64,000 nucleotides of DNA. It comes from Roseibium sp. TrichSKD4 (GTDB taxonomy: Bacteria; Pseudomonadota; Alphaproteobacteria; Rhizobiales; Stappiaceae). The notes under the pieces are model-generated. The model was not told the origin of the DNA and ran no database searches. It worked only from the letters and a program-made list of their open reading frames with translations. Positions 15,048 through 62,012 of this stretch are shown in pieces (the stretch's first letter is position 1; each line of letters opens with the position of its first letter). Position numbers and translations under genes: made by a program. Location: NCBI RefSeq assembly GCF_000148725.1, contig NZ_GL476310.1, positions 94,119-158,118 on the forward strand. The letters run 5' to 3'.

Positions 15048-17246
15048 GTGCTGTTTGACGATTTGGAAGATGACACAGAGACAATTGCCAGTGTGCTGGT
15101 GCCAGTCGCAGTACCAACAGCTTATACCTACCGCGTGCCGAAAGGGGCACATGTGTGTCCGGGCACAATCGTCAAGGTTCCGCTTGGCCCCAGAGAGGTG
15201 ATCGGAGCGGTTTGGGATGTGACGCCGGATGCCGGGATCAATCCGAAAAAGCTGAAGGAAATTAGCCGTATTTTTGAGGAGACCAGACCTCTGGATGCGG
15301 AGCTTCGCCAGTTCATCGATTGGGTCGCCAATTGGACATTGGCACCACCGGGAATGGTTTTGCGTATGGTGCTTCGATCCGAAGAGGCATTGGAACCGGA
15401 AACGCCGATTGCCGGTGTGCGGCGTTTGGCGGGAATGGAGCCAGACCGAAAAACGCCCGCCCGTGCCCGCGTTCTGGAAACGATGGAAGACGGTTTTGCC
15501 TGGACAAAGAGCGGTCTTTCGCACGCAGCAGGCGTGAGCGTTTCCGTCATTGATGGGTTGCTGAAGCAGGGCGTTTTGGAAGTTGTTGAAATGCCAGCCG
15601 CACCGCCACTGCCCAAACCGGACATTGACTATGCACGCGTTGATCTAACCGAAACTCAGAAAAAAGCAGCTGACGGGATTCGGGCAGCTTTCGAAAAGGG
15701 TGCGAGCGTTAGCCTCATCGATGGGGTCACGGGCTCTGGAAAAACAGAAGTCTATTTCGAGGCGATTGCCGAGGCCCTGAAGCGCGGCAAGCAAGCTTTG
15801 ATTCTGGTGCCGGAAATCGCGCTGACCGAACAGTTTCTAAGGAGATTCGAGCAACGATTCGGTGTTTATCCCGCCGAATGGCATTCGGAAATCACCCCAA
15901 AAAAGCGAGCGCGGGTGTGGCGCGGCGTGGCAAGTGGCGATGTCCGGGTCGTTATTGGAGCCCGCTCTGCGCTCTTCCTGCCATTTCTTGAGCTTGGGTT
16001 GATCGTGGTTGATGAAGAGCATGATACGGCCTTCAAGCAGGATGATCGGGTGCCATACAGCGCGCGAGACATGGCGGTCGTGCGCGGTCATATATCCAAG
16101 TTCCCTGTGGTTCTGGCATCTGCAACACCCTCGGTTGAAAGTCGGGTGAATGCCGAGCAGGGGCGCTACAATCGGTTCATTCTGCCTGATCGTGCATCAG
16201 GCGCGGCCCTCCCGGACCTTCAGGCGGTTGATATGCGCGCCGAAGGGCCTGAACGCGGACGGTGGATCGCGCCGCCACTGCTCAATGCTATTCGCTCCGC
16301 CTTTGCAGACGGCGCACAATCACTTTTGTTCTTGAATCGGCGTGGATATGCGCCGCTGACCCTGTGCCGAAAATGCGGCCACCGATTCCAGTGCCCACAT
16401 TGCAGTGCGTGGCTGGTGGAGCATCGCTTCCAGAAGCGGCTTAACTGTCATCACTGCGGCCATTCCGAATCTGTTCCAGAGGCCTGTCCGTCGTGCTCAT
16501 CCACCGATTCGCTGGTCGCTTGTGGACCGGGTGTGGAAAGAATTGCTGAAGAAGTCTCAGGCCTGTTTCCCGAAGCGCGCACTTTGGTGCTCTCCTCCGA
16601 TATTCAAGGTGGACCAGATCGCCTTCGCCGTGAAATGAAGGTTGTTGAGGAAGGTGGGGCGGACATTGTTATTGGCACGCAGCTGGTGGCAAAGGGGCAC
16701 AATTTCCCCAAAATGCGACTTGTTGGTGTGATTGATGCGGATCTCGGCCTTGCTCACGGAGATCCCCGAGCAGCTGAAAAAACCTTTCAACTGCTGGCGC
16801 AGGTGACGGGCCGGGCCGGGCGGGTTACCGGTGATGGCGCAGGTTTCTTGCAAACCTACGCGCCAGATCATCCGGTTATTAAGGCGCTTTTGTCGTCTGA
16901 TCGTGATGCCTTTTATAATGCAGAGATTGAGGCCCGGCAGGCAACAGGCTTACCGCCATTTGGCAGGTTGGCAGCGTTGGTGATTTCTGGACCGGACAAG
17001 GCTTTCACGGAAGGCTATTCACGCGCCATATTAAGAACGGCTCCAATGCACGAGGCAATTACCATACTTGGGCCAGCAGAGGCAGCGTTGGCTATGGTGC
17101 GCGGTCGTCACCGCTACAGACTGCTGGCGCTTGCGCCTCGCCAGATTGACTTACAAGGCTACATCCGCGCGTGGCTTTCCGAAGCGCCGAAACCTGTAAA
17201 AGGCTTGCGCGTCCAGATCGACATCGATCCGCAACATTTCATGTAG
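15048..17246 (+). CDS. priA: Primosomal replication restart helicase PriA
   Basis: This 732-residue 3'-5' DNA helicase reloads DnaB at stalled forks. The N-terminal 3'-DNA-binding domain (VLVPVAVPTAYTYRVPKGAHVCPG) is followed by Walker A GVTGSGKTEVYFEA (~residues 226-233), the DEEHD box in LIVVDEEHDTAFKQ, and the Zn-binding insertion with eight cysteines (LCRKCGHRFQCPHC ... NCHHCGH ... EACPSCSS). The helicase C-terminal motifs GTQLVAKGHNFP and QVTGRAGR follow. The start is a GTG preceded by CAGGTGA; no better ATG exists before the conserved N-terminus. In Rhizobiales priA often lies near xerC and atpH, as here. Confidence 0.96.
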   Translation: MLFDDLEDDTETIASVLVPVAVPTAYTYRVPKGAHVCPGTIVKVPLGPREVIGAVWDVTPDAGINPKKLKEISRIFEETRPLDAELRQFIDWVANWTLAPPGMVLRMVLRSEEALEPETPIAGVRRLAGMEPDRKTPARARVLETMEDGFAWTKSGLSHAAGVSVSVIDGLLKQGVLEVVEMPAAPPLPKPDIDYARVDLTETQKKAADGIRAAFEKGASVSLIDGVTGSGKTEVYFEAIAEALKRGKQALILVPEIALTEQFLRRFEQRFGVYPAEWHSEITPKKRARVWRGVASGDVRVVIGARSALFLPFLELGLIVVDEEHDTAFKQDDRVPYSARDMAVVRGHISKFPVVLASATPSVESRVNAEQGRYNRFILPDRASGAALPDLQAVDMRAEGPERGRWIAPPLLNAIRSAFADGAQSLLFLNRRGYAPLTLCRKCGHRFQCPHCSAWLVEHRFQKRLNCHHCGHSESVPEACPSCSSTDSLVACGPGVERIAEEVSGLFPEARTLVLSSDIQGGPDRLRREMKVVEEGGADIVIGTQLVAKGHNFPKMRLVGVIDADLGLAHGDPRAAEKTFQLLAQVTGRAGRVTGDGAGFLQTYAPDHPVIKALLSSDRDAFYNAEIEARQATGLPPFGRLAALVISGPDKAFTEGYSRAILRTAPMHEAITILGPAEAALAMVRGRHRYRLLALAPRQIDLQGYIRAWLSEAPKPVKGLRVQIDIDPQHFM

Positions 17247-32316: not shown

Positions 32317-32617
32317 CCTGCTCTATTTCCTTTGAAGACTAGAAGCTGCATGAGCACATTTCATTCTATTTGGTTGGCAAACTGAAATGAATGAGAGGCT
32401 TTACAGCAACGGATTGGCAACCCCGTTTTGTAGAAATTGCAATTGATATAAAGATTTCTTTATGTCTTTATTGAAGTAAAGAGTGGCGCGCGGTATAACC
32501 CCGCTCAGTCGATAGGGAAGGCTGCGCCTTTCTGCGTTGAAAAGATTGGGTTTGGAGGTATTTCTCCGGCCTGAATCACCTGCTCGGCAAAGGCCGACAA
32601 CCACTCAGGACATCTAC
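32317..32617 (+). other. ahcY upstream region
   Basis: This 301-bp stretch has no convincing gene. Its AT-rich centre carries a near-perfect 22-bp palindrome (32445-32466). I looked for the SAH riboswitch core expected at some ahcY leaders and did not find it. Confidence 0.5.
32445..32466 (+). promoter_or_regulatory. Palindromic operator candidate upstream of ahcY
   Basis: Arms GATATAAAGA (32445-32454) and TCTTTATGTC (32457-32466) are complementary at 9 of 10 positions around TT. The core ATAAAGA..TCTTTAT is of the kind reported, as I remember it, for ArsR-type SahR regulators of SAH recycling genes. Its place 150 bp upstream of ahcY fits; the regulator is not in the window. Confidence 0.5.
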
Positions 32618-34006
32618 ATGACTGATTATATCGTCAAAGACATTAGCCTCGCAGATTGGGGCCGGACCGAGATTGAAATCGCCGAGCACGAAATGCCGGG
32701 CCTGATGGCTTGTCGTGAAGAGTTTGGTGAAGCGAAGCCACTGAAAGGTGCGCGGATCGCCGGCTCCCTTCATATGACGATCCAGACAGCAGTTCTCATC
32801 GAGACCCTCGTTGCACTGGGCGCTGAAGTTCGCTGGGCATCCTGTAACATTTATTCTACGCAGGATCAGGCTGCAGCAGCTATCGCAGCTGCTGGCATTC
32901 CGGTTTTCGCCATCAAGGGTGAAACTCTCGAAGAATACTGGGCCTATGCGGACAAGATCTTCGACTTCCCGGAAGGGGCGAACATGATCCTCGACGATGG
33001 CGGGGATGCAACACTTTACCTCTTGATCGGTGCGCGTGTTGAAGCAGGCGAAACCGCCTTGATCGAAAACCCGTCGTCGGAAGAAGAAGAAGCTCTGTTT
33101 GCGCAGATCAAAAAGCGTCTTGCTGCAAACCCGGGCTGGTTCACGAAGCAGCGTGATCTCATCCAGGGCGTTTCTGAAGAAACTACCACGGGTGTTCTGC
33201 GTCTTTATGAAATGCAGAAAAAAGGCCTGCTGCCGTTTCCGGCCATCAACGTGAACGACAGTGTTACCAAGTCCAAGTTCGACAACCGCTATGGTTGCCG
33301 TGAATCTCTGGTAGATGGTATCCGCCGTGGCACGGACGTTATGATGTCCGGCAAGGTCGCCGTTGTTTGTGGTTATGGTGACGTTGGTAAGGGCTCTGCC
33401 CAATCTCTGGCCGGTGCCGGGGCACGCGTTATCGTGACTGAAATCGACCCGATCTGTGCGCTTCAAGCCTCAATGGACGGTTTTGAAGTCAAGACCATGG
33501 AACAGGCTCTGCCTGAAGGTGATATCTATGTCACTGCAACGGGCAACAAGGACATCATCACCTTCGACCACATGCGTGGTATGAAGGATATGGCGATTGT
33601 CTGTAACATTGGCCACTTTGATAATGAGATCCAGGTTGCAGCCCTGAAGAACACCAAGCTGCGCCCGGTGAAGGACCAAGTGGACATGTACGAGTTCCCG
33701 GATGGGAAACGTATGATCCTTCTGTCCCAAGGACGTCTCGTCAATCTCGGTAACGCAACGGGTCACCCAAGCTTCGTAATGTCCGCCAGCTTCACCAATC
33801 AGGTTCTGGCGCAGATCGAGCTCTACACAAAGGGTGACCAATATCAGAACGAAGTTTACGTGCTGCCGAAGCATCTCGATGAAAAAGTCGCACGTCTGCA
33901 CCTTGAAAAGCTCGGTGTAACATTGACAGAACTGTCAGAGGAGCAGGCTGATTATCTGGGGATCAGTCAATCCGGTCCTTTCAAGCCTGAGCACTACAAA
34001 TACTGA
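32618..34006 (+). CDS. ahcY: S-adenosyl-L-homocysteine hydrolase
   Basis: A 462-residue NAD-dependent enzyme that splits S-adenosylhomocysteine to adenosine and homocysteine, removing the product inhibitor of methyltransferases. Visible signatures are [31 protein letters not shown], the NAD Rossmann motif [15 protein letters not shown], and the C-terminal KPEHYKY-type end (here FKPEHYKY), which closes the active site. The start is at [16 protein letters not shown]; the open frame extends upstream without family match. It is located between the PTS cluster and divL, as in other Rhizobiales. Confidence 0.97.
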
Positions 34007-34010
34007 TTTT

Positions 34011-34159
34011 GAATCCGGCAGACTCTATATTTAGTGGTCTTCCGGAATCGGCCAAATTTTAAAAGGTTAACGTGATTCATTGTTTCAGTGGGTCTCGTTA
34101 ACTTTTTGGCAAGAGACTCTTCTTCGCGAATCCCAAAAAGGTTATGGTTTTAACGAATC
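34011..34159 (+). promoter_or_regulatory. Cluster of seven GANTC sites and TTAAC boxes upstream of divL
   Basis: GANTC, the CcrM methylation site, starts at 34011, 34021, 34045, 34074, 34115, 34128 and 34155: seven in 149 bp where chance gives about 0.6. TTAAC half-sites like those bound by CtrA occur at 34067, 34098 and 34150, two of them preceded by a TTAA/TTAT four bases earlier (consensus spacing would be seven). The region lies between ahcY and divL. Confidence 0.65.
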
Positions 34160-34251
34160 AGGGGCCAAGAGGCACAAGCTTCTGATTTGTATCCAGCGTC
34201 AAGTGGGTGAAGCCCCGCGCTGGACATAATGGCGGCGTAAGGGGATTTGGA

Positions 34252-36765
34252 ATGCCGATAGGCGGCTTGAACGCAGCGCGTAAACGCGTGGCGTGGCTTG
34301 GAAGGATTCTAGGAACTGGAAAGGTTTTGGGCTCAACTGCCTGTGCGACCTTGCTGCTTCCTCGTGTGGCTTTCGCCGCTGATGAAATGTCTTCTTCGTT
34401 TCCCTCAATTGATGCCAATACCATGATGCTTTTGGGTGCGTTTGGCGGCATGTGCGCCTTCGCAATCACAGCGTCTGTTGCTTATCTGCGCCAGCGCCGG
34501 GCAGCCGGGGCTCTATGTGAGCACCTTCATCGTGAGAAAAGCGAACTCAAGCTGCGGGTTGACCGTCTTGAATCCATGCTCAACTCCGATGAGCAGAGAA
34601 TTGTTGTCTGGACTGGATCCGGCAATGCGCCTCAAGTGTGGGGCGTGCTTCCCGAACAGTCCGGAGTGCCAAGGGCAACCAACCAGCTTTTGGCCTTCGG
34701 GTCTTGGTTGTCTGCAAAATGCGCTTCTGATCTGGAGCGCCGACTGGATGCGCTGTTCAGCACAGGCGAAACGTTCACAACGACCCTGACGACGCGCGTT
34801 GGCACCTTCGTGGAAGCCATTGGGCGGACGACGGGAGGTGCCGTCGTGCTGCGGTTGCGCGACATGACCGGCGAACGGCAAATCCAAGCGGAGATCTCCG
34901 CTCGAAATGCGAAAATTTCCGGTGAGTTGCACATGCTGCACTCTCTCCTTGATGCTCTACCTTCACCGGCATGGCAGAGAGATGCGGAAGGCAAGCTGAT
35001 TTGGGTCAATCAGGCCTATGCCACTGCGATTGATGCGCCAGACCAGAAAGCGGCGATCAAGGAAGGCGACGACTTCCTTGATTCTGCGGCCCGCGATGCA
35101 GCCGGGAAAAACCGGAATGAAGACGGATGCTTTACAGCGCGTATTCCGATGGTGGCCGCGGGAGAGCGTCGGGTCTTTGAAGTGACGGATGTGGCTGCCA
35201 ATGTTGGCGGCGCGGGTGTTGCCATTGATATCAGCGAATTGGATCAGGTTCGCCGGGAACTGTCACGCGCAGAAGAATTCCATGGCCGGACACTGGATCA
35301 GCTGGTAACCGCGGTTGCGATTTACGGCGGCGACCGGAAGCTTCAGTTTCATAATGAAGCTTTCCGTCAGCTCTGGGAGCTCGAGCCCGTCTTTTTGGAA
35401 AGCTCCCCGGAAGATGGTGCTGTGCTCGATGCGTTGCGCGCCGCTCGCAAGCTGCCGGAGCAGGCAGACTATCGCGTCTGGCGCAACACAATGCTGGAAA
35501 GCTACCAGTCTGTTGAGACGAAAGAGCATTGGTGGCACTTGCCGGACGGACGCACGCTACGCGTCGTTGCCAGTCCTCACCCGCAAGGCGGCGTGATTTA
35601 CATCTATGAGAATGTTACAGAGCGTCTCGATCTTGAAAGCCGTTATAATGCATTGATCCGCGTGCAGGGTGAAACGCTTGAGAACCTCTCTGAAGCTGTG
35701 GCTGTGTTTGGGTCCGATGGTCGTTTGCGCCTCTGGAACCCGGCCTTTAGCCGTATCTGGAATTTCGAAGAAGACCGCCTTTCCCAACTGCCGCACGTCA
35801 ATCAACTTGAAAGCACCTGCGCTCTCTCTCCTGCTGAGCAGGAGGCATGGGATCGCCTTTCCGCAAATGTTACCAGCCTGTTGGAAAACCGCACGCCGGT
35901 TGCCAATCGCATGGAACGACATGACGGGGCCGTCCTCGACTATGCAACTGTTCCGTTGCCCGATGGTGGAACCCTCGTCACCTTTGTGGACGTCACCGAT
36001 AGTGTGAATGTTGAACGGGCGCTGGTCGAAAAGAACGAAGCTCTGGAGCAGGCAGACGAGCTCAAGAACGCATTCATTCAGCACGTTTCCTACGAGCTGC
36101 GCTCACCGCTCACAAATATCATCGGCTTTGCGCAACTGCTGACGGATCCAAAGTTTGGAGATTTGTCGGAAAAACAGGGCGAATATGCAGATTATATTCG
36201 CTCATCCTCCTCCGCGCTTCTGGCTATTATCAATGACATTCTGGACCTTGCGACCCTTGATGCCGGCATCATGGAGCTGGAGCTGAGTGAAGTCGATGTG
36301 GCAGCGACTGTAGAAGCCGCTGTTGAAGGTTTGAAGGATCGCTTGGCGGAATCTCGGATCAACCTGCGAACAGATGTGCCGGACAACATTGGCAGCATGG
36401 TGGCCGATGAAAAGCGACTTCGTCAGGTTCTGTACAATCTAATTTCAAACGCCGTTCGCTATTCGGAGGAAGAAGGCGTTGTGGATGTGGTCTGTAATCG
36501 AAAAGACGAAGCCGTCGAATTCGTGGTCAAGGATCATGGCTGCGGAATTCCTGCAGACATCTTGACTCAGGTCTTTAATCGCTTCGTCGGACATAATGCG
36601 GGTGCACGGCGGCAGGGCGCAGGGCTCGGCCTGTCCATCGTGAAGAGTTTCGTTGAATTGCATGGCGGCAAGGTCGACATCAACAGCGTAGAAGGCAAGG
36701 GTACAACGGTGACCTGTTCCTTTCCTGCCAAGCCGGAGCTTTCCGGCAGCATCGCCGCGGAATAA
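34252..36765 (+). CDS. divL: DivL-type cell-cycle pseudokinase
   Basis: An 837-residue membrane-anchored histidine-kinase homologue. A short N-terminal part with one TM (~63-82, TMMLLGAFGGMCAFAITASV) precedes several PAS domains (~195-560; for example PAS-like GELHMLHSLLDALPSPAWQRD and LENLSEAVAVFGSDGRLRLWNPAF). The H-box is HVSYELRSPLTNIIGF, with Tyr614 where kinases have His, the hallmark of DivL. The ATPase domain is intact: QVLYNLISNAVRYSEE, DHGCGIP, GAGLGLSIVKSFVELHGG. In Caulobacter DivL acts with DivK upstream of CckA-CtrA. The ATG at 34252 has AGGGG upstream; a GTG at 34207 is less likely. tsaE follows 14 bp later. Confidence 0.9.
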   Translation: MPIGGLNAARKRVAWLGRILGTGKVLGSTACATLLLPRVAFAADEMSSSFPSIDANTMMLLGAFGGMCAFAITASVAYLRQRRAAGALCEHLHREKSELKLRVDRLESMLNSDEQRIVVWTGSGNAPQVWGVLPEQSGVPRATNQLLAFGSWLSAKCASDLERRLDALFSTGETFTTTLTTRVGTFVEAIGRTTGGAVVLRLRDMTGERQIQAEISARNAKISGELHMLHSLLDALPSPAWQRDAEGKLIWVNQAYATAIDAPDQKAAIKEGDDFLDSAARDAAGKNRNEDGCFTARIPMVAAGERRVFEVTDVAANVGGAGVAIDISELDQVRRELSRAEEFHGRTLDQLVTAVAIYGGDRKLQFHNEAFRQLWELEPVFLESSPEDGAVLDALRAARKLPEQADYRVWRNTMLESYQSVETKEHWWHLPDGRTLRVVASPHPQGGVIYIYENVTERLDLESRYNALIRVQGETLENLSEAVAVFGSDGRLRLWNPAFSRIWNFEEDRLSQLPHVNQLESTCALSPAEQEAWDRLSANVTSLLENRTPVANRMERHDGAVLDYATVPLPDGGTLVTFVDVTDSVNVERALVEKNEALEQADELKNAFIQHVSYELRSPLTNIIGFAQLLTDPKFGDLSEKQGEYADYIRSSSSALLAIINDILDLATLDAGIMELELSEVDVAATVEAAVEGLKDRLAESRINLRTDVPDNIGSMVADEKRLRQVLYNLISNAVRYSEEEGVVDVVCNRKDEAVEFVVKDHGCGIPADILTQVFNRFVGHNAGARRQGAGLGLSIVKSFVELHGGKVDINSVEGKGTTVTCSFPAKPELSGSIAAE

Positions 36766-36779
36766 TTGGCCGGTCGCTC

Positions 36780-38345
36780 ATGTCCGGTCAGGCTCCCGCT
36801 ACCCTCAGTTCGCCCTTCACCACCCTAAAACTGGAAACAGAAGACGCAACGCGCCAGCTGGCGGAGGACTTGGCGGTAATCCTGCGGCCTGGTGATGCGA
36901 TCTTGCTATCGGGTGATTTGGGTGCCGGGAAATCAACCTTGTCTCGCGCGCTCCTGCGAAGCCTTGCAAGTGATCCGGAACTGGAAGTTCCAAGCCCGAC
37001 CTTCACGCTTGTTCAAACCTACCGGCTCGACCGGCTGGAGGTCGCACATTTCGATCTCTACCGGCTCGAAGAACCGGAAGAAGTTGAGGAACTGGGCCTT
37101 GCAGAGGTTCTCGAAACCGGGGCGGCACTCATCGAGTGGCCGGAAATGGCAGCCGACCTTTTGCCGGAAAACGCTCTTTGGCTGCAGTTGACGGAAACCG
37201 GAGAAGTCGGGCCGGATGGTGAGGCCGTCCGTACTGCGGCCTTTCAGTCCGACAATCCGGACTGGCAAAAGCGCGTTCAGCGAACTTTGGGTCTCCGGCG
37301 ATTTCTGATCGAAAATGACTATTCAAATGCAGGACGCTCCCACATTGCCGGTGATGCCTCGGCCCGAAATTTTGAGCGAATAGTTCTATCGAAGAAATCT
37401 GCCATCTTGATGGATTGGCCAGAACCAGAAGGGGCTGCGGCAACACCAGAAGCGCTTTCCTACAATGCTCTTGTTCACCGCGCGCCTGATTGTCGGGCCT
37501 TCGTAGCTGTGGCGGGAGAGCTAAAGCGTCGCGGCTTCGGCGCTGCCGGGGTTCTGGCGTCTAGTGTTACCAACGGTATGCTGCTTCTTGAGGACTTGGG
37601 GTCAGAAGGCATTGTAGATGATGAGGGAGCACCATTCCCGGACCGCTATCATGCCGCAATGCGGATTTTGGCGCGTTTGCACTCAGAGCCTCTGCCCCAG
37701 AATGTCCCTCTGCCAGATGGTGGTTCTTATGACGTTCCGGATTACTCACTAAATGCGCTTTTGACCGAAGCAGATCTTTATGTGGACTGGTTCGCACCGG
37801 ATAGATTGGGGCGGTCCGTTTCAGATGAACATCGACGGGCGTTTCGTGCGCTTTGGACTGCTGCGATCAATGACGCGCAGCAAGCTGAATGCAGCTGGGT
37901 GCTCCGGGATGTCCACTCACCGAATATCCTCTGGCAACAAGACAAAGACGGTGATGACCGGATTGGATTGATTGACTTGCAGGACACGGTTTGGGGTCCT
38001 GTTGCTTATGATGTGGCCTCTTTGGCTTTGGATGCACGTGTTGACGTGTCCGGAGAGCTGGAAAAGCAGTTGTTGATGACCTATTTCGATGCAAGGCAGC
38101 AGGCTAATCCGGGGTTTGATCGCGTGCGCTTTGAAGCTGCCTATGCCATCATGGCGGCACAGCGTTTGACGAAAATTCTGGGCATCTTTGTCCGTTTGGC
38201 GAAGCGGGACGGTAAGCCGGGATATCTCGTTCATGCGCCTCGCCTGATCGGGTATATGGACCGCGTATTGCAGCATCCGTCATTGACAGGTTTGAAGGAC
38301 TGGTTTGGAAAGTCCGGCCTGTTTTTGAAGCGGACTGGGGAGTAA
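36780..38345 (+). CDS. TsaE / AmgK-like sugar kinase fusion
   Basis: A 521-residue bifunctional protein. Residues ~15-165 are TsaE, the ATPase of the tRNA t6A37 complex, with Walker A SGDLGAGKST (44-53), SPTFTLVQTY and HFDLYRLEEPEE. Residues ~175-521 are an aminoglycoside-phosphotransferase-fold kinase with catalytic Asp377 in LRDVHSPNILW and Mg ligand Asp in IGLIDLQDT. That second half resembles AmgK, the N-acetylmuramate/N-acetylglucosamine anomeric kinase; the adjacent murU homologue supports this. Such fusions occur in other Rhizobiales, so this is not an assembly join. The stop is 7 bp before murU. Confidence 0.9.
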   Translation: MSGQAPATLSSPFTTLKLETEDATRQLAEDLAVILRPGDAILLSGDLGAGKSTLSRALLRSLASDPELEVPSPTFTLVQTYRLDRLEVAHFDLYRLEEPEEVEELGLAEVLETGAALIEWPEMAADLLPENALWLQLTETGEVGPDGEAVRTAAFQSDNPDWQKRVQRTLGLRRFLIENDYSNAGRSHIAGDASARNFERIVLSKKSAILMDWPEPEGAAATPEALSYNALVHRAPDCRAFVAVAGELKRRGFGAAGVLASSVTNGMLLLEDLGSEGIVDDEGAPFPDRYHAAMRILARLHSEPLPQNVPLPDGGSYDVPDYSLNALLTEADLYVDWFAPDRLGRSVSDEHRRAFRALWTAAINDAQQAECSWVLRDVHSPNILWQQDKDGDDRIGLIDLQDTVWGPVAYDVASLALDARVDVSGELEKQLLMTYFDARQQANPGFDRVRFEAAYAIMAAQRLTKILGIFVRLAKRDGKPGYLVHAPRLIGYMDRVLQHPSLTGLKDWFGKSGLFLKRTGE

Positions 38346-38352
38346 AGATTAA

Positions 38353-39087
38353 ATGGGACAGGGGCAGTTTCGGCCTTCGCATGCGATGATTTTGGCCGCC
38401 GGGCTGGGAAAGCGGATGCGCCCTTTAACTGCGACAACACCCAAACCGCTTATTGAGGTCAATGGCAAGGCGCTGATTGATCATGGCATGGACCGATTGG
38501 CCGAGATTGGCGTCAAGGTCTGTGCTGTTAATGTGCATTATCTGGCCGATCTTGTTGAGGTGCATGTTAAACGCCGCAAAGACATGGAAATCCGGATTTC
38601 CGATGAGCGCGATGGTTTGTTGGACACCGGCGGCGGCATCAAGAAGGCCCTGCCGGACTTGGGCGACCAGCCGTTTTTCCAACTGAACTCAGACACCGCC
38701 TACTGGATCGAAGGGGTCAAACCCAATCTCCAGCACATGATAGAGGCTTGGGATGACGACCGGATGGATGCGCTGTTGCTGCTTGCCGAGACGGTCAATG
38801 CCGTTGGCTTTTCCGGGCGTGGCGATTTCGATATGGCGAGGAACGGCCAATTGATCCGTCGCAAAGAGCGCAGCATCACCCCCTTTGCTTATGCAGGCGC
38901 CGCAATTTTGCACCCACGCCTGTTTGAAGGCAGTCCGGATGGAGCCTTTTCAATGAACCTTCTCTTTGACAAGGCGATTGAGGCCGGGCGCCTTTACGGA
39001 GTTCAGATGGAAGGTATCTGGCTGCATGTCGGAACGCCTGAAGCCATTGTTGAAGCAGAACATGCCGTGCGCGAAAGCGCGGCGTAA
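38353..39087 (+). CDS. murU: N-acetylmuramate-1-phosphate uridylyltransferase-like nucleotidyltransferase
   Basis: A 244-residue NTP transferase. The N-terminal signature MILAAGLGKRMRPLTATTPKPLIEVNGKALI is read in pieces: G-x-G-x-R-M-R-P-L-T and K-P-L. The catalytic Asp region is LNSDTAYWIEG, and LHVGTPEAIVEAEHAV closes the sequence. MurU makes UDP-MurNAc from MurNAc-1-phosphate in the fosfomycin-insensitive wall-recycling route with AmgK. The preceding gene carries an AmgK-like kinase, so both steps are adjacent. A generic sugar nucleotidyltransferase is the alternative. Confidence 0.87.
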   Translation: MGQGQFRPSHAMILAAGLGKRMRPLTATTPKPLIEVNGKALIDHGMDRLAEIGVKVCAVNVHYLADLVEVHVKRRKDMEIRISDERDGLLDTGGGIKKALPDLGDQPFFQLNSDTAYWIEGVKPNLQHMIEAWDDDRMDALLLLAETVNAVGFSGRGDFDMARNGQLIRRKERSITPFAYAGAAILHPRLFEGSPDGAFSMNLLFDKAIEAGRLYGVQMEGIWLHVGTPEAIVEAEHAVRESAA

Positions 39088-39090
39088 TTC

Positions 39091-42000
39091 ATGCAAGCAT
39101 CCGCACCCGCCTCTGTCTATTCGATTCCATCCTCTGTTCCGTTCCTGAAGACGCTGGCAACGGCGCTCGTTGACGGCACCTTAGTGCCAGGATTTCGACC
39201 GCTGGATGATCCGCTCTTGTTGCCAACGGCAACGCTCTATTTGCCGACAAGACGTGCAGCACGGCTGCTGCCGGAGATATTTCAGGACTTGTTCGGCGGC
39301 AAGCCGGTCCTCCTGCCCGTGATCCGGCCCGTTGGAGATACAGAAGAAGACCTGCAGCTCTTGAGTGCGGAGGCAGATGGCGAAGCTTTGCCGCCATCGA
39401 TGCCTGTGCTGGAACGTCACTTGGCGATGACGCGCTTGGTGATGGCGTGGAAAGGAGCACTTCGCCGAGAAGTGTTGAACCTCGGGCTCAACGAACCGCT
39501 GGGTGTTCCGGCTTCCGCTGCGGATGCGGCATGGCTGGCCGCAGACCTCTTGTCTTTGATGGACGAGATCGAAACGGAGGAAGCCGATTGGTCCGACATT
39601 GCCAAGCTGGTGCCGGATGACCATGCAAGATATTGGCAAATCACACTCGACTTTCTGAAAATCGTTCAAGAGGCTTGGCCAGCTCATCTCGCCGAGCGAG
39701 GCTTAATGGACCCAAAGGCGCGCCGTTCTGCGCTTATTCGCAAGGAAGCTGAACGGCTTTTGACAAACCCGCCCAAGGGACCGGTGATTGTGGCTGGTGT
39801 CACAGGGTCAGTGCCTGCAACCGCAGCTCTTTTGAAAGCCGTCTCTCGCCTCGACCGCAGTGCCATTGTCCTGCCGGGGCTCGATCTGACAATGGACACA
39901 TCATCCTGGGAGGCGCTGGAAGGCCCATCGCCAAAAGCTGGCACCATAATCAAACCGGGCGGCAAATCTATGCCCGGCCTGTCAGCGCACCCGCAATATT
40001 CCCTGAAAAAAATCTTGAGCGAATTGCAGGTCGACCGGTCAGCCGTTTCTTGTCTCGGCGAAAAACCAGAACCAGCCTTGCAGGCCAGAGAGCGCCTGTT
40101 GTCAGAGGCCATGCGTCCGGCGGAAACATCTGACGGCTGGATGGCTTACCTTGGTAGGGTAAGGGAAAAGGAAAGAGCTGCTGCTCTTGAGAATGTCAGC
40201 CTCATTGCTGCACGAAACGAAGCCGATGAAGCGTTGAGCATCGCCATTGCTCTTCGCGAAGCGTTGGAAGTGGGCGAGACGGCTGCGCTGATTTCTCCGG
40301 ATCGCTTCTTGACCCGGCGTGTGGCGAGCGAATTGGCGCGCTGGAAAATTCAGGTCGACGACAGCGCTGGACGTCCGCTTGACCAAACACCGCCTGCGAT
40401 TTTGGCGATATTGACGGCCAAACTGGCGCTTTATGGGTGTGATCCGCTGGACCTGTTGGCGCTTTTAAAACATCCGCTTTGCAGATTGGGCCTCCCGGCA
40501 AAGGATAACCGTTCAGCTGCACGCGCACTGGAGCGTGGTGTGCTTCGTGGCCCACGCGCAGCACCCGGAACGGCCGGATTAAAGGACGCAGTGGACGCCG
40601 CGCGGCTTGAAGCCGAGAAACGCATGGCGGAAGAGGGAACCAGCCGGGAACTACCACGCTGGAAGAAGATCCATGAGGCAGACTGGACGGTTTTAAGCGA
40701 TCTGGTCACCCAATTGGGTAACGCGCTGGCCCCCCTTGAGGCGATTGCTGATTTAACAGCTCCGATGCCGATACTAGACTTGGCCGAAGCACATGCACGG
40801 GCAGTTGCCGCCATCGCCGAAGATGAGACGGGCAGTCCCGATGAGCTATACGCTGAAGAGGCGGGCGATGTCTTTGCTGCGTTCATGGTCGAACTGCTTT
40901 CGGCCAAGGACACAGGTTTGGAATTGAAACCGGCAGATTGGCCAGCGGTGCTGACCGCCTTGATGTCAGGCCACGCCGTCCGTCGCAGGCTTCCCGGTGA
41001 TCCCCGAGTGCAGATCCTTGGGCCGTTGGAAGCCCGCCTGCAGCAATTTGATCGTGTGATCCTCGGCAGCCTGAATGAAGGAACGTGGCCCCAGAAGACG
41101 CGAAACGATCCGTGGTTGAACCGACCAATGAAGCGCGACCTCGGCTTGGAACCTCCTGAGCGCAGGATCGGGGCGTCTGCCCATGATTTTTGCATGGGGT
41201 TTGGGGCGAAAACGGTCATTCTAGCGCGTGCGGCTCGGGCGGACGGCGCTCCTACCGTGGCCTCGCGTTGGCTGCAACGCCTCACGACATTGGCCGGGCC
41301 GGATATTACAAAAGATATGTCAGGCCGTGGTGCTGTCTATTCCGACTTGGCCGAAGCGATTGATCGCGCCGATGGGCTTGTTACACCTGCTCCGCGCCCC
41401 AATCCGGCGCCACCCGTTGCCATTCGCCCAAAGCAATTGTCTGTTACGGAAATAGAACGTTTGATCCGTGACCCATATGCGATTTTTGCACGTCACGTTC
41501 TGGATCTGCAGCCCGTAGACCCGATTGGGGGCGAACCGAATGCGGCGGACAAGGGCAACATCATCCACGATGCCCTAGCCAAGTTCTTGAGTGATTGGGA
41601 CGGCCCATTTAACGAAACGGCGGTTGCCCATCTGGTCTCCATAGGTGAGAAACTGTTTGCCCCGCTCGACGCCTTCCCGTCTGTGCGGGCGCTTTGGTGG
41701 CCACGGTTCTTGCGCATTGCTGACGGATTTGTGGCTTTCGAAGCTCGGCGTGCGCCCAAGGTCGAGCACCGCTATCTGGAAGTTGGTGGCGGTGTGGACC
41801 TGAAATTGCCCAGTCTTGATTTCCTCCTGAAAGGTCGAGCGGACCGGATCGACGTCATGGAAAACGGGTCCATCGCCATTCTGGATTACAAGACCGGTCA
41901 GGTGCCAAGTCTCAAACAAGTGGAAGCGCTGCTCGCACCGCAATTGCCGCTGGAAGCGGCGATGATCACGCGGGCCGGGTTCAATGATATCCCGGCAGAT

Positions 42001-42267
42001 AGAAGTTTTTCCGAGTTTCTTTATCTGCAACTAAAGGGCGGTACAGACCCTGTCATCGAAGCGCCGCGCAATCCGAAAGACTGCGACTTGAAAGAGTTGG
42101 GTGAAGATGCTTTTGCGCGCCTGGAAACCCTTGTCGTTCACTATTCCAAACCGGAAACGGGGTATCTCTCGCGGGCGCGGGTGATGAAGGAACGCGATAT
42201 TGCCGGGCCTTTTGATCATCTGGCACGGGTGGCTGAATGGTCGTCCGCCGGAGAGGACGAGGCATGA
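39091..42267 (+). CDS. addB: Double-strand break repair protein AddB (alphaproteobacterial type)
   Basis: A 1058-residue subunit of the AddAB helicase-nuclease that resects DNA ends for RecA. The N-terminal half is helicase-like (LYLPTRRAARLLPEIF, LLPVIRPVGD) with degenerate motifs; the C-terminus holds a RecB-type nuclease with GSIAILDYKTGQVPS (Asp-x-x-Lys). An iron-sulfur cysteine set as in Bacillus AddB is not evident. The start is 3 bp after murU, and the last four bases overlap addA (ATGA), so the pair is coupled. Confidence 0.93.
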   Translation: MQASAPASVYSIPSSVPFLKTLATALVDGTLVPGFRPLDDPLLLPTATLYLPTRRAARLLPEIFQDLFGGKPVLLPVIRPVGDTEEDLQLLSAEADGEALPPSMPVLERHLAMTRLVMAWKGALRREVLNLGLNEPLGVPASAADAAWLAADLLSLMDEIETEEADWSDIAKLVPDDHARYWQITLDFLKIVQEAWPAHLAERGLMDPKARRSALIRKEAERLLTNPPKGPVIVAGVTGSVPATAALLKAVSRLDRSAIVLPGLDLTMDTSSWEALEGPSPKAGTIIKPGGKSMPGLSAHPQYSLKKILSELQVDRSAVSCLGEKPEPALQARERLLSEAMRPAETSDGWMAYLGRVREKERAAALENVSLIAARNEADEALSIAIALREALEVGETAALISPDRFLTRRVASELARWKIQVDDSAGRPLDQTPPAILAILTAKLALYGCDPLDLLALLKHPLCRLGLPAKDNRSAARALERGVLRGPRAAPGTAGLKDAVDAARLEAEKRMAEEGTSRELPRWKKIHEADWTVLSDLVTQLGNALAPLEAIADLTAPMPILDLAEAHARAVAAIAEDETGSPDELYAEEAGDVFAAFMVELLSAKDTGLELKPADWPAVLTALMSGHAVRRRLPGDPRVQILGPLEARLQQFDRVILGSLNEGTWPQKTRNDPWLNRPMKRDLGLEPPERRIGASAHDFCMGFGAKTVILARAARADGAPTVASRWLQRLTTLAGPDITKDMSGRGAVYSDLAEAIDRADGLVTPAPRPNPAPPVAIRPKQLSVTEIERLIRDPYAIFARHVLDLQPVDPIGGEPNAADKGNIIHDALAKFLSDWDGPFNETAVAHLVSIGEKLFAPLDAFPSVRALWWPRFLRIADGFVAFEARRAPKVEHRYLEVGGGVDLKLPSLDFLLKGRADRIDVMENGSIAILDYKTGQVPSLKQVEALLAPQLPLEAAMITRAGFNDIPADRSFSEFLYLQLKGGTDPVIEAPRNPKDCDLKELGEDAFARLETLVVHYSKPETGYLSRARVMKERDIAGPFDHLARVAEWSSAGEDEA

Positions 42268-45200
42268 GCGGTTTTCAGATCCCTGAACTGACAAGGGAAC
42301 GTCAGGACCGGGCATCCCAACCTCGGGCATCGGCTTGGGTGAGCGCGAATGCCGGGTCTGGAAAGACCTTTGTTCTCTCTCGCCGCGTGGTCCGTTTGCT
42401 TTTGGACGGAACCGATCCCTCGCGAATTCTAGCACTGACCTTTACCAAGGCTGCTGCCGCTGAAATGGCGACCCGGGTTTTCAAGATCCTTGGGGAGTGG
42501 GTCACCAAAGACGACAAAGACCTTGCTGATGAGCTGGAGGAAATTGAGGGCCGAACACCGGATGCAAAGCGGGTGGCATTTGCCCGGCGCTTGTTTGCAG
42601 AAGCGCTGGAAACACCGGGGGGTTTGAAGATCCAGACCATCCACGGTTTTTGCGAGGCTTTGCTGCATCAGTTCCCACTGGAAGCAAATGTCGCCGGTCA
42701 TTTTCAGGTTCTGGATGATCGGATCGGTGCAGAATTGATGGCCGAAGCGCGGGGGGGCGTTCTGCATTTGGCAGAAACCAACCCGAACAGCGAACTCGGC
42801 AATGCTCTCAATACCGTTATCGGCCTCATGGCGGATGGCACGGCAGAAAAAGCGCTGGATGAACTCATTCAGAACCGGGATGACCTGCGCCGCTGGGTGG
42901 AAGATAAGGGTGGTCTGACGAATGCCATCTCTGAGTTGGCGGCTGAACTTGGTATATCGGAAACCTCTGACCTTGCCGCGCTGGAAGCACGGTTTTTGTC
43001 TGAATGTCCGTTCGATCCAAATACCTGTCTGAGCTACGCGGAAGCCTTTCGTGCCGGGTCCGGGAACGACCTTAAAATGGCAGATGCGCTGGCAGGCGCG
43101 GCTGTGATCACCGATCCGGAAAAGTTCAAGAAACACTGGCTGCCTCTGTTCCTCACCCAGAAAATGGAGCCGAGAAAAAAGCTGGCGAACAAGGGCGTTG
43201 CCGAAGCCTATCCGGCTGTTATCGACGCTCTGGTGGCGGAGCAACAAAGGCTCCTCGACCTTCTTGAGGAACGGAATCTCATTGTCACCTTTGTGGGGAC
43301 GCGGGCTTTGCTGGAATTGGCTCACGCGGTTATTGAGCGCTACGAGAACGCCAAAATGGCCAAGGGCTATCTCGATTTTGAGGATCTGGTGGTCAAAACC
43401 GCACGGCTGTTAGCGCGCTCCGATGCAGCGCTCTGGGTTCAGTACAAACTTGATCAGGGTCTTGATCATATCTTGGTGGATGAGGCGCAGGACACCAGTC
43501 CCCGTCAGTGGCAGGTGGTCAGTTCGCTGGCTGCAGAGTTCTTTTCCGGCGAAAGTGCGAGCGACCGGGTTCGCACGCTGTTCGCTGTGGGGGACGAAAA
43601 ACAGTCGATCTATTCATTCCAAGGGGCAGTTCCGGCTTACTTTGACGCCATGCGGCGGCAATTCTCAAAACATGCGGAAGCCGCTCAACACACGTTCCAC
43701 TCCGTCGATCTGCAACTCTCCTTCCGCTCCACGCCTGATGTGCTGGGAGCGGTGGACAAGGTGTTCAAGGAAAGCGACGCTTATCAAGGGCTATCACAGG
43801 AACTGAAAGCACCGGTTCACGAAGCGATCCGCCGAGATCCAGGACTGGTAGAGATCTGGCCTCTGGAGCAGGAAGCGGATGTTGTAGAACCTGAAGACTG
43901 GCGAGAGCCGATCGACCATGTTGGTATCAGTTCACCACCAGCTCGGGTCGCGCAGCGCATCAGCACGGCGATCCGAGACTGGATGGAAAAGGGGGAAGTC
44001 GCGCCCGGTGACATCATGGTGCTTGTGCGCAAGCGTGGCGCGTTTGTTGAGATTCTAAACCGGGAACTGAAACAACGCGGTATTCCCGTGGCAGGGAGCG
44101 ACCGGTTGGTGCTCACAGACCACATCGCGGTTCAGGATCTGGCGGCGTTGGGGCGGTTTCTTCTGCTATCAGAAGATGACTTGTCGCTGGCAGCAGTTCT
44201 CAAAAGCCCACTCTTTCAGTTGACCGATGAGGACCTGCTGGAAATCGCGCGTGATCCGGATGGACGGCGCAGAGCCGGGACTTTGTGGCAGGGGCTGGTA
44301 TCCCGTGGCATGGACATGCCGAAGTGGGAGAAAGTGCGCTCTCGTCTCGACATCTGGCGGGCGCGTGCCGACTTCATGCCGCCCTTTGAATTCTATTCGC
44401 GCCTCTTGTCCGCGGATGGTGGACGACGGCAGTTCCGCAAACGTCTCGGCGTCGAAGTGGACGATGTTCTGGACGAATTCCTGAACCTTACGCTGGCCTA
44501 TGAACAAACCGGCACTCCTGGCCTTGAGGGGTTTTTGGCCTGGATGGCGGCGGCTCCAACTGAAATCAAACGGGAGCTGACCAGCACGAAAGGGCTCGTT
44601 AGGGTCATGACCGTGCATGGCTCAAAGGGCCTTGAGGCAAAGGTTGTGATCCTTGTTGATCCGGGTTCAAAGCCAGTGAACGCGACCCATGACCCTGCCT
44701 TTTTGCCGCGTGAAAGCGGTGTCGCTGGTGCCCCGCCTGCACTTGTCTGGTTGCCGACCAAGGCTGATCGCACCCAATGGCACAATTCCGCTATTGAGGC
44801 GCGTCACGAGACACAAGCCGAAGAGTATCGACGCCTTCTCTATGTGGCTTTGACGCGCGCCGAAGACCGATTGGTGGTCTGCGGTTGGGAACCCAAAAGT
44901 GGGGCGCCGGAAAACGGTTGGTACAATCTCGTCTCTCGAGCTTTGACAGCTGATGCACGGGAAATCAAGAACACCGTTGGCGAGACAACAGCGTGGCAAT
45001 GGCAACGAGCTGCAAATGACCCTGAAGTAATGGATCTGCAGGAAACCCATCACTCTGACGCCCAGACAGAGACAGCGCCGATGCTGGACTTACCTCCACC
45101 CCCGCCACAGTGGCTGGCCAAACCGGTCAAGCCTCTCCCGCGCAAACGTCGATTGCAGCCTTCTAAAGTTTTTGAGGTGATGGAGGAGAAGGAACGAATC

Positions 45201-45788
45201 GATCCTGTCCCTACCAGCGCACGGCTCAAGAGCCGACTGGCAGACCCGTCGTGGCCGCTGGAGCGAGGGCGCATTGTGCACAGGCTTCTTGAGGTCTTGC
45301 CGGAGATGCCGGCTGAAGACCGAGACGGGGCCATTGACCGGTTTCTCGATGCATCGCTGCCTGATGCATTCAAAGCCCGAAAGTCGGAACTATCTGACGA
45401 AATACAGAAGATCCTTCTGTCCGAAGAATTCGCGTCGCTTTTTGCAGAGACGGCACGGGCAGAGGTGCCCGTTGCCGGAACGATCCTGACTACCGGCGGA
45501 GCGGAAATTGCCGTGTCGGGACAAATTGATCGGTTGGTTGAATGTCCAGATCACGTTCTGATCGTCGATTATAAAACCAACGTGAGCGTGCCACGGCATC
45601 CTGAGGAAGTTTCAGCAGAATACCGGGCCCAGCTTTCGGTTTATCGCGAGCTCCTGAAGGGCGTGTTTTCGGGCAAGGCCATAATGGCTGCGCTGCTTTG
45701 GACGTCACAACCTGCACTGATGTTGATGCCGGATGACCTGCTGGAGGAAACTTTCAAGGGACTAAAGCCTGACGGGACTGCTTCTTGA
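42264..45788 (+). CDS. addA: Double-strand break repair helicase-nuclease AddA
   Basis: A 1174-residue UvrD/Rep-type helicase with a C-terminal nuclease. Walker A is [15 protein letters not shown] (~residues 33-41), motif [16 protein letters not shown], motif [17 protein letters not shown], motif [17 protein letters not shown]. The nuclease core reads [14 protein letters not shown] near residue 1105. Order addB-addA-trxA is typical of Rhizobiales. The start overlaps the addB stop; an upstream in-frame ATG at 42237 would overlap more and lacks support. Confidence 0.96.
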
Positions 45789-60528: not shown

Positions 60529-62012
60529 GGTTAAAAAGTCCGCCCTGAACAACGTCTAAGCCATTGATGTTGCGCGTGGCCGAAGCAATACGCAAATATT
60601 CGATTTGACCGGTTTGGGGATGGGGTTTGTGATCCAGAGCAGCAAAATGATCAGTGCATTGAGGATCAGACGCAGGTTATGACCGGCTGCGGCCAGCAGG
60701 GCGTTGATGGCATCGCCATTTTTGCCATTGAGGAAGTTCCGGTCAAGTCGTCCATCTGTTTTCATGTGGCCGATGGTGGCCTCGATCGCTGATCGTCGTT
60801 TCAGCTCACGCTTCATCTGTGCCGTCAGCCCGCGCTTCTGGCCGGAGATCATGACCTTGGCGTCGCCCTCATAATCATGCCCCCGATAGCCACGGTCCAC
60901 ATAGACACGCTCAGCTTTGGTGCCGCAGACTTTCTCAGCCTGACTGATGGTGTCATTCAAGGTGTGCCCATCATAGGGATTGCCCTCAAAAGCCCTCGCC
61001 GCAAGAACCAATCCTTCCCGATTGGTCGTGGCAATGCCAACCTTGGCCCCGAACTCGTAAGGTGTTCGCGCCTTGCCCTTGGCAATACAGGCCACTTCCG
61101 GCGCATGCATGGAATAAATCTTGTTTTTGTCCTTGGGGGTCTGGGCCAGAAGCCGCTCCACCAGTCCCAGCAGACGGGAGAACCGGTGCTCAAGACCTTC
61201 GTTGCCTGCGATCTTGCGGGAGATGTCGCGATAGACCCGGCCCAGATAGGTCTTCAGCTTTTTGAGTTCCCGGCGCATCCGCTTGAACTGTTTGGCATGG
61301 GCATAACGGCCCGCCATCAAGGCCGCCTTTTTGGCAACTCTGGTATGGCTGCGACGCAAGATGATGCCGGCCCTCTTGGCCTGGCGCACCAGAAGCTGCA
61401 AGGCCTTGTGATAAAGACGGCTATCGGTGGGATGGGCAATGGCTTTGGGTTGAACGGTCGTATCAACCAAGACCCGCTCAAGGCTGCTCTTCTTGATCGT
61501 CCCGCTCTCAATCGCAACACCTACCGTAGCAGAAAGAAGCTTTTCCATTCCCTCAGGACCAATCCGTTTGCGCCAGCGGGTCATGGTTGAGGGATCAATG
61601 GGGAATTGGTGCTGGAAAAACTCAAAACCGCAGAAAGACTGCCAGTAGGGGTTTTCAACCCAACGCTCAACCGTCTCTTCATCGGAAAGATCGTACATGT
61701 GCTTGAGAAAGTGCAGCCCGGCCATCAGACGCGTTGGTTTGGCCGGTCGTCCCAAGGGGCGATAATGCCTGCCGAACTCCGCATCAAATTCATCCCAAGG
61801 CATCAGACCAGACAGCCGCACCAACGAATGGTTCATATCGATGATTGCGGCCAGGCGTTCCTTGAACAGATCGCCACACCGTTTGTTGCGTTTTGAAGGT
61901 CTCATGAGAATATGCCAGAAAATGCGTGCTTCGGATCAACTAACCGGCATATTCACACATCCAAAACCCAATGGGTATCCATACTCTTCAATCAGTTAAG
62001 GGGTTTTTCAGC
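60529..62012 (-). mobile_element. IS5-like insertion sequence
   Basis: An element of about 1.48 kb with one transposase on the minus strand. Candidate terminal inverted repeats are GGTTAAAAAGTCC at 60529-60541 and the complement of 62000-62012 (reading GCTGAAAAACCCC), which match at 9 of 13 positions. I see no matching target duplication, so the exact ends are uncertain. It separates ugpC from alkC. Confidence 0.6.
60556..61905 (-). CDS. IS5-family-like DDE transposase
   Basis: A 449-residue transposase, intact from ATG to stop. The N-terminal DUF772-type domain (LAAIIDMNHSLVRLSGLMPWDEFD, DLSDEETVERWVENPYWQSFCG) is followed by a DDE core: Asp in VLVDTTVQPKAI, Asp in VYVDRGYRGHD and Glu in RSAIEATIGHMKTDGRLDRN. 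A Lys/Arg-rich insert lies between the first two. It resembles the long IS5-group transposases of alphaproteobacteria. No frameshift is visible, so the element may still be active. Confidence 0.9.
   Translation of the reverse strand: MRPSKRNKRCGDLFKERLAAIIDMNHSLVRLSGLMPWDEFDAEFGRHYRPLGRPAKPTRLMAGLHFLKHMYDLSDEETVERWVENPYWQSFCGFEFFQHQFPIDPSTMTRWRKRIGPEGMEKLLSATVGVAIESGTIKKSSLERVLVDTTVQPKAIAHPTDSRLYHKALQLLVRQAKRAGIILRRSHTRVAKKAALMAGRYAHAKQFKRMRRELKKLKTYLGRVYRDISRKIAGNEGLEHRFSRLLGLVERLLAQTPKDKNKIYSMHAPEVACIAKGKARTPYEFGAKVGIATTNREGLVLAARAFEGNPYDGHTLNDTISQAEKVCGTKAERVYVDRGYRGHDYEGDAKVMISGQKRGLTAQMKRELKRRSAIEATIGHMKTDGRLDRNFLNGKNGDAINALLAAAGHNLRLILNALIILLLWITNPIPKPVKSNICVLLRPRATSMA

Follow-up and report, generated by a model that had tools for sequence, protein, structure and literature searches.

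What does a dense cluster of GANTC sites do in front of divL? In the window (the whole stretch of 64,000 nucleotides of Roseibium sp. TrichSKD4 that we analysed), an earlier note had listed seven GANTC between ahcY and divL and proposed that divL transcription is read against replication through their methylation. Upon re-reading the sequence, we found all seven positions to be exact (Table 1). The chance rate assumed there, one site per 256 bp, needs correction: the window carries 87 GANTC where dinucleotide shuffles predict 302, a depletion, and its real background is one per ~736 bp. The strong excess claimed for seven sites in 149 bp was borne out: the 87 sites, placed randomly in 20,000 trials, never put more than 6 into any 149-bp stretch, and dinucleotide shuffling of the 245-bp gap, repeated 20,000 times, gave a mean of 0.93 GANTC and a maximum of 5, so that seven was reached in neither set. 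Alphaproteobacterial genomes are depleted of GANTC overall, with over-representation in intergenic regions (PMC3973325). The remaining non-coding DNA of the window, as defined by a greedy choice of open reading frames, contains 12 GANTC in 6,305 bp, or 1.9 per kb; at that rate the content of the gap has a Poisson probability of ~6e-7, and intergenic enrichment alone is therefore insufficient as an explanation. A looser group, eight GANTC in ~830 bp, lies inside the priA coding sequence (window 15677-16510).

The gene behind the gap encodes a protein with the PAS, HisKA and HATPase_c domains of DivL (PF12860, PF00512 and PF02518, all above cut-off), and its H-box, SYELRSPL, carries Tyr614 instead of the phospho-acceptor histidine. 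Among 85 long loci including the window, some of which are repeats of one genome, 84 cover the box, and every one of these has tyrosine at this position. Caulobacter DivL likewise has a tyrosine for the phospho-acceptor histidine. Its translation more likely starts at ATG 34252 than at GTG 34207, judging from a Shine-Dalgarno-like stretch and from relatives. Downstream, gaps of only 14, 7 and 3 nt separate divL, tsaE/amgK, murU and addB, and addB and addA overlap. The order and strand of divL, tsaE/amgK, murU and addB are kept in 23 of 24 loci, the contig ending in the remaining one; the spacing varies, with murU ~0.9 kb after tsaE/amgK in loci L014 and L019 and addB ~0.6 kb after murU in L005 and L008. 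Judging from this layout, the timing of peptidoglycan recycling and break repair may be set by the same promoter as that of a cell-cycle pseudokinase. The gene at 36780-38345 encodes a single 521-amino-acid protein that joins TsaE to an AmgK-like sugar kinase, and an IS5-family transposase lies on the minus strand at 60556-61905.

Table 1. Features of the ahcY-divL region, in window coordinates; promoter positions are relative to the expected start, and intact copies are counted in 88 distinct family gaps.
Feature	Position	Strand	Evidence or remark
ahcY, adenosylhomocysteinase, upstream neighbour	32612..34006	+	NCBIfam TIGR00936, 619 bits
GANTC site 1 (GAATC)	34011..34015		lineage-specific, intact in 1/88
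GANTC site 2 (GACTC)	34021..34025		lineage-specific, intact in 2/88
GANTC site 3 (GAATC)	34045..34049		part of family, intact in 33/88
GANTC site 4 (GATTC)	34074..34078		few relatives, intact in 8/88
T-rich block GTTAACTTTTT, ~-58 to -48	34097..34107	+	1 to 8 changes per column, gap median 10
GANTC A (GACTC), ~-40, abuts -35 region	34115..34119		intact in 56/88
Predicted weak -35 region TTCTTC, 17-bp spacer	34120..34125	+	0 changes at 34119-34121
GANTC B (GAATC), ~-27, in -35/-10 spacer, 10 nt before -10	34128..34132		intact in 75/88
Predicted extended -10: G34141 + TATGGT 34143-34148	34141..34148	+	0 changes at G141, T143, A144, T148
Predicted 5'-leader hairpin, 12-pair stem, AGGC in loop	34154..34189	+	covariation, fold comparison
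GANTC C (CGAATCA, reverse complement of TGATTCG), at expected +1	34155..34159		intact in 87/88
divL: PAS, HisKA with Tyr614 replacing phospho-acceptor His, HATPase_c	34252..36765	+	
Fused tsaE/amgK, murU, addB, addA	36780..45788	+	perhaps co-transcribed with divL

The DivL protein was matched in 87 of 87 family genomes, in one only from residue 273 onward. The closest named relatives belong to Roseibium/Labrenzia (72-75% identity), and the closest genome overall, L026, reaches 86%; the order is that which we take to be Hyphomicrobiales (Rhizobiales of GTDB). Within the family, 95 loci with an ahcY-divL gap gave 88 distinct gaps, the window included, and changes were counted per column of the gap alignment on the ahcY tree, where the median column shows 10. 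We found that the cluster consists of two parts, a conserved triad (A, B and C) that is strongest at C, and four variable upstream sites. Changes across the five columns number 9, 4, 2, 7 and 0 at A, 2, 3, 6, 3 and 4 at B, and 1, 0, 1, 0 and 1 at C. The comparison with relatives that the earlier note had called for thus upheld A, B and C and went against the other four sites, and we rejected the seven-site cluster as a single element, since those four are kept in 1, 2, 33 and 8 of the 88 gaps. Having seven sites is unusual even inside the family: per gap (or its first 245 bp), one GANTC was found in 12 gaps, two in 15, three in 9, four in 33, five in 17 and seven in 2. Two results at B count against methylation control of the promoter: in one family branch B was lost and C retained, and the N of B changes 6 times, little more than its fixed positions (2-4). 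All 56 intact copies of A in the family read GACTC and none fits the GcrA motif; A may therefore be kept through its overlap with the -35 region. By eye, the alignments of L007 and nine Rhizobium-type loci contain terminator-like inverted repeats after ahcY and before the divL promoter; the counterpart of this region in the window looks degraded and holds the variable GANTC sites.

Conservation also points to a promoter. The gap appears to hold a sigma-70-type promoter with a weak -35, a 17-bp spacer and an extended -10; C34119, T34120 and T34121 are invariant in the family, as a CTT 22-24 bases upstream of the -10. A plain consensus promoter scan found no promoter at the divL gap. If the start lies seven bases downstream of the -10, a placement made from the -10 alone, A would lie at -40, B at -27 and C at +1. 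By this conservation-based placement, in which the start is a predicted one, GANTC occurs inside a sigma-70 core promoter, with B in the spacer and C beside the -10. The distance from A to B is 13 bp (14 in some other families). The position of C varies by one base in either direction within the family, and in Rhizobium loci C is found 4 bases farther away. The T-rich block, 48-58 bp upstream of the predicted start, occurs in the variants GTTAACTTTT and GTTTACTTTT (window 34097-34107); it is perhaps UP-element-like, or perhaps a CtrA half-site drifting to TTTAC.

We assessed this geometry with a scan anchored on TANNNT. Among 114 distinct cores, 50 had A, B and C, 32 had B and C, 5 had A and C, 20 had C only, one had B only and 6 had none, as compared with 0 with all three, 1 with B and C and 233 with C only among 2,280 shuffled regions. 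One of the six cores with none, L025, is a match to an unrelated metagenome-assembled genome and was then excluded; L076 gave no candidate, and 12 loci lacking a divL tblastn match were absent from the scan and later added by coordinates. As anchored scans presuppose the distance from B to the -10, a separate check chose B-C pairs without reference to the -10: of 79 distinct pairs, 76 have TANNNT 15 nt downstream of the first base of B, the three exceptions being two chance pairs and L076. We also considered whether the geometry marks a general promoter class. The pattern CTTC-N5-GANTC-N10-TANNNT was sought in 8 genomes and precedes divL in 7 of them; in total it had 9 matches (the 7 at divL and two elsewhere) against 7 for the reversed control, and the spacing pair of -10 and TGATTCG had 12 matches against 8 in the control. 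On these counts, a general class was rejected.

Site C carries more than GANTC. The Caulobacter GcrA motif has been given as TGATTCG or YGAKTCK, and Brevundimonas as having no such extended preference (PMC7987155). In the family, C is CGAATCA or CGAATCG and matches YGAKTCG in 86 of 87 intact sites, a fit shared by 10 of the 87 GANTC in the window. The looser YGAKTCK is matched by B in 57 of 75 copies and by A in 0 of 56; among the window's own three sites, the extended motif is matched by C but by neither A nor B (CGAATCC). In loci outside the family, the motif at C sits in the same place, mostly on the opposite strand (52 of 55).

The arrangement reaches well beyond the family. Sixty-nine order-level loci outside it were used, in sets of 14, 25 and 30; the search behind the set of 25 had a match in 146 of 150 genomes. 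The 69 loci yielded 62 distinct cores, of which one lacked a TANNNT candidate. C was found near the -10 in 56 of the 62, with the extended motif in 55 of these, and B in 36 of the 62; 45 of the 56 also had A or B, and 17 had all three. Among 1,220 shuffles, C occurred in 119, the extended motif in 28, and C with A or B in 1. At class level, B together with C was absent from the 40 relatives examined, which are 40 of 91 genomes with a match, mostly the best-scoring, with uncertain gene starts and possibly some members of the same order. C beside the -10 was present in 7 of these 40, about double the shuffle rate (63 of 800), and C alone may therefore extend beyond the order. The full arrangement thus appears widespread in the order, with B plus C unseen in the class-level sample.

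The regulators that could read such sites are present in relatives. The GcrA family (PF07750) was found in 14 of 14 relatives, 13 of them above cut-off; among 14 control genomes the profile matched in Caulobacter and in Sulfolobus, the latter a point against the reading proposed below. A RAMA domain, which we take to be a domain of CcrM-type enzymes, was found in 15 of 15 relatives, and Caulobacter was the sole control to match. With hemE taken as an origin marker, we assessed the chromosomal position of divL: the two genes share a contig in 15 of 20 genomes, at 340-743 kb directly in eight family genomes, at 215-702 kb in three more if the contig is circular, near opposite contig ends (the distance then being inexact) in two more genomes, and at ~1.23 Mb in two genomes outside the family. 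In closed relatives from the family, divL thus lies on the origin side of the chromosome, and its sites in the family should turn hemimethylated early in S phase. Many Rhizobiales have been described as having one divL homologue near the origin (PMC8116508).

We propose that divL is transcribed from a promoter within 34115-34189, a stretch that also takes in the beginning of the leader, and that CcrM-methylated GANTC in this promoter is read by GcrA, giving replication-timed transcription; we give this reading a probability of about 0.68. It starts from the observed site positions, the geometry seen through conservation, the GcrA-type motif, the regulators of relatives and the gene order. RNA polymerase with the housekeeping sigma factor would use the weak -35 and the extended -10, TATGGT, and CcrM would methylate the GANTC at about -40, -27 and +1. 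GcrA, a sigma-70 cofactor for methylated GANTC, would bind C (YGAKTCG) most likely and perhaps B, and once bound would help to open the divL promoter; it has been described as binding sigma domain 2 and stimulating opening at methylated promoters (PMC7403470). Passage of the fork would leave the sites hemimethylated early in S phase, until CcrM returns. Depending on which methylation state is the active one, transcription of divL, perhaps also of tsaE/amgK, murU and addAB behind it, would then be timed by replication; on the sequence evidence, divL is probably switched by a methylation state that DNA replication changes. The interpretation is partly supported by the fixed place of C beside the -10, its GcrA motif and the regulators in relatives. 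Of the methylation control that the earlier note had assigned to the cluster, three of the seven sites stand as conserved parts of a core promoter, one of them with a GcrA-type motif, and the cluster as a whole does not. The direction of the effect is harder to state. In Caulobacter, a GANTC between -10 and -35 goes with promoter activation at 40-60 min, as in ctrA P1 (site at -28/-29) and podJ P2 (site at -24), whereas promoters whose GANTC sits elsewhere in the upstream 50 bp are at their minimum in that interval (PMC4287350). B falls into the activated position class and A and C fall outside it, and the joint effect of the three is therefore not predictable from the Caulobacter rule.

The most serious alternative, which we consider unlikely, is an ordinary housekeeping promoter, conserved for its sigma-70 contacts and its leader, whose GANTC are methylated without controlling divL. 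The -35 and -10 columns are indeed among the most conserved, and A, invariably GACTC, overlaps the -35 region. Some GANTC of Agrobacterium repABC promoters may similarly be mere core-promoter bases (PMC11514494), and counts of GANTC upstream of cell-cycle genes gave no derivable control (PMC2877005). C, however, lies outside the -35 and -10 hexamers and yet is conserved as strongly as they are, and YGAKTCG and GANTC persist there even though the strand of the motif differs between groups.

Could C be kept not for methylation but because the transcript begins with an RNA hairpin whose 5' arm it forms? A covarying hairpin with a conserved AGGC loop is predicted to begin at C, at the putative divL start, with compensatory changes in its 12-pair stem in one subclade. 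The Roseibium-like subclade, with 26 rows, shows pairing in 96.2% of cells and changes on both sides in 16; 0 of 500 shuffles were as high, whereas double-change pairs were matched by 62 of 500 and pair types by 19 of 500. For the 12 rows of a second subclade, 84.2% of cells pair with 10 both-side changes; again 0 of 500 shuffles were as high, and double-change pairs were matched by 1 of 500 and pair types by 39 of 500. These rows (26 and 12 of 72) were chosen by hand to match in length and fold, which biases the counts towards structure. The leader alignment comprises 61 of 72 distinct leaders, and L131, which lacks C, was excluded from the hairpin work. Of 73 distinct family leaders, 55 have a stem of 7 or more net pairs that carries an AGGC loop, compared with 1% of shuffles. 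Folded as a whole, the leader of the window is unremarkable (z -1.07), and Rfam returned no match above gathering for the leader, only chance matches below it. A leader peptide within the hairpin was rejected upon inspection of the leader listing by eye, the ATG not being conserved. Because C lies inside the stem in one subclade, part of its conservation could be at the level of RNA. As an account of C as a whole, however, the hairpin is improbable: in the second subclade GAATC precedes the stem, and yet none of the 12 rows departs from it; outside the family the hairpin occurs in 5 of 35 leaders (those with a scan score of at least 3), yet C occurs in 56 of 62 cores. As to the role of the hairpin itself, protection of the 5' end or a small-RNA target are guesses.

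It is more improbable still that CtrA, or a LexA- or DnaA-like factor, binds the gap and that the GANTC are incidental. The TTAAC half-sites that the earlier note had pointed out among the GANTC are present, at 34067, 34098 and 34150, but a functional CtrA role for them found no backing: those at 34067 and 34150 are kept in 12 of 88 family gaps each, and the full site, TTAA-N7-TTAA, occurs in 0 of the 88, the window gap included. The site at 34098 is kept in 52 of 88, with TTTAC in 29, and lies in the conserved GTTAACTTTT block at 34097, which together with an 8-mer CtrA half-site in 6 of 88 family gaps is what speaks for such a factor. LexA-type and DnaA-type motifs were found in 2 of 88 family gaps each and not in the window gap, all three motifs being scanned for in the forms that we take to be theirs. 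Finally, chance or general intergenic enrichment of GANTC, to which the intergenic over-representation noted above and the lineage variability of the four upstream sites would lend themselves, is hardly credible for a gap whose seven sites no shuffle reproduced and whose A, B and C are kept at fixed spacing; it is refuted for B and C and may hold for other sites.

Returning to replication-timed control by GcrA and CcrM, we can extend it, tentatively and with more doubt than belief, to a promoter that arose early in the order and ties an entire operon to passage of the replication fork. In it, the three marks at -40, -27 and +1 would form a graded methylation clock read by GcrA, the leader would bear the AGGC hairpin as a dedicated regulatory element, and the CtrA-pathway pseudokinase DivL and the break-repair helicase-nuclease AddAB would be timed together, through DNA methylation and then through RNA.

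How does this promoter compare with known ones? The ctrA P1 and podJ P2 promoters of Caulobacter crescentus are likewise sigma-70 promoters with a GANTC in the spacer near -27 (PMC4287350, PMC7987155), and a GcrA-type extended motif and a cell-cycle regulator gene are common to the Caulobacter GcrA/CcrM promoters and to this one. Unlike ctrA P1 and podJ P2, divL here has three GANTC whose spacing is almost constant (-40, -27 and ~+1), its best GcrA motif at the predicted start rather than in the spacer, and a weak -35 with an extended -10; its conservation is order-wide, and its regulation is predicted from sequence. In Caulobacter and Brevundimonas the gene and its proposed regulator are the same: GcrA has divL in its regulon in both C. 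crescentus and B. subvibrioides (PMC7987155). The same paper, using a score that ignores site position, describes divL as auxiliary, with regulation likely in only a few of its 13 alphaproteobacteria. In contrast to that picture, we found the architecture kept in most of the order-level relatives sampled, and B plus C in 0 of 40 class-level ones. The Agrobacterium repABC Ch2 promoter also has three GANTC, some of them in the core promoter, and is linked to GcrA, but it serves the initiator module of a replicon, whereas divL is a chromosomal cell-cycle kinase gene (PMC11514494). In Brucella abortus, GANTC is enriched 4.4- and 4.7-fold in GcrA ChIP peaks; the available part of that paper contains no mention of divL that we could find (PMC6813329). 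GcrA control of divL is thus already known in Caulobacterales, and the fixed-spacing, order-wide version is what is added here; we found no description of a fixed-spacing divL promoter in the open-licence literature, the scope of our search, with subscription papers and supplements outside it.

DivL heads the CckA-CtrA pathway. If the proposed control is true across the order, its symbionts and pathogens included, then an input to CtrA, beyond ctrA itself, would be clocked by replication. The conserved geometry pinpoints the exact bases concerned, and makes the generality of epigenetic divL timing outside Caulobacter directly testable. It is the fixed spacing, and not the number of sites, that reveals promoters of this kind.
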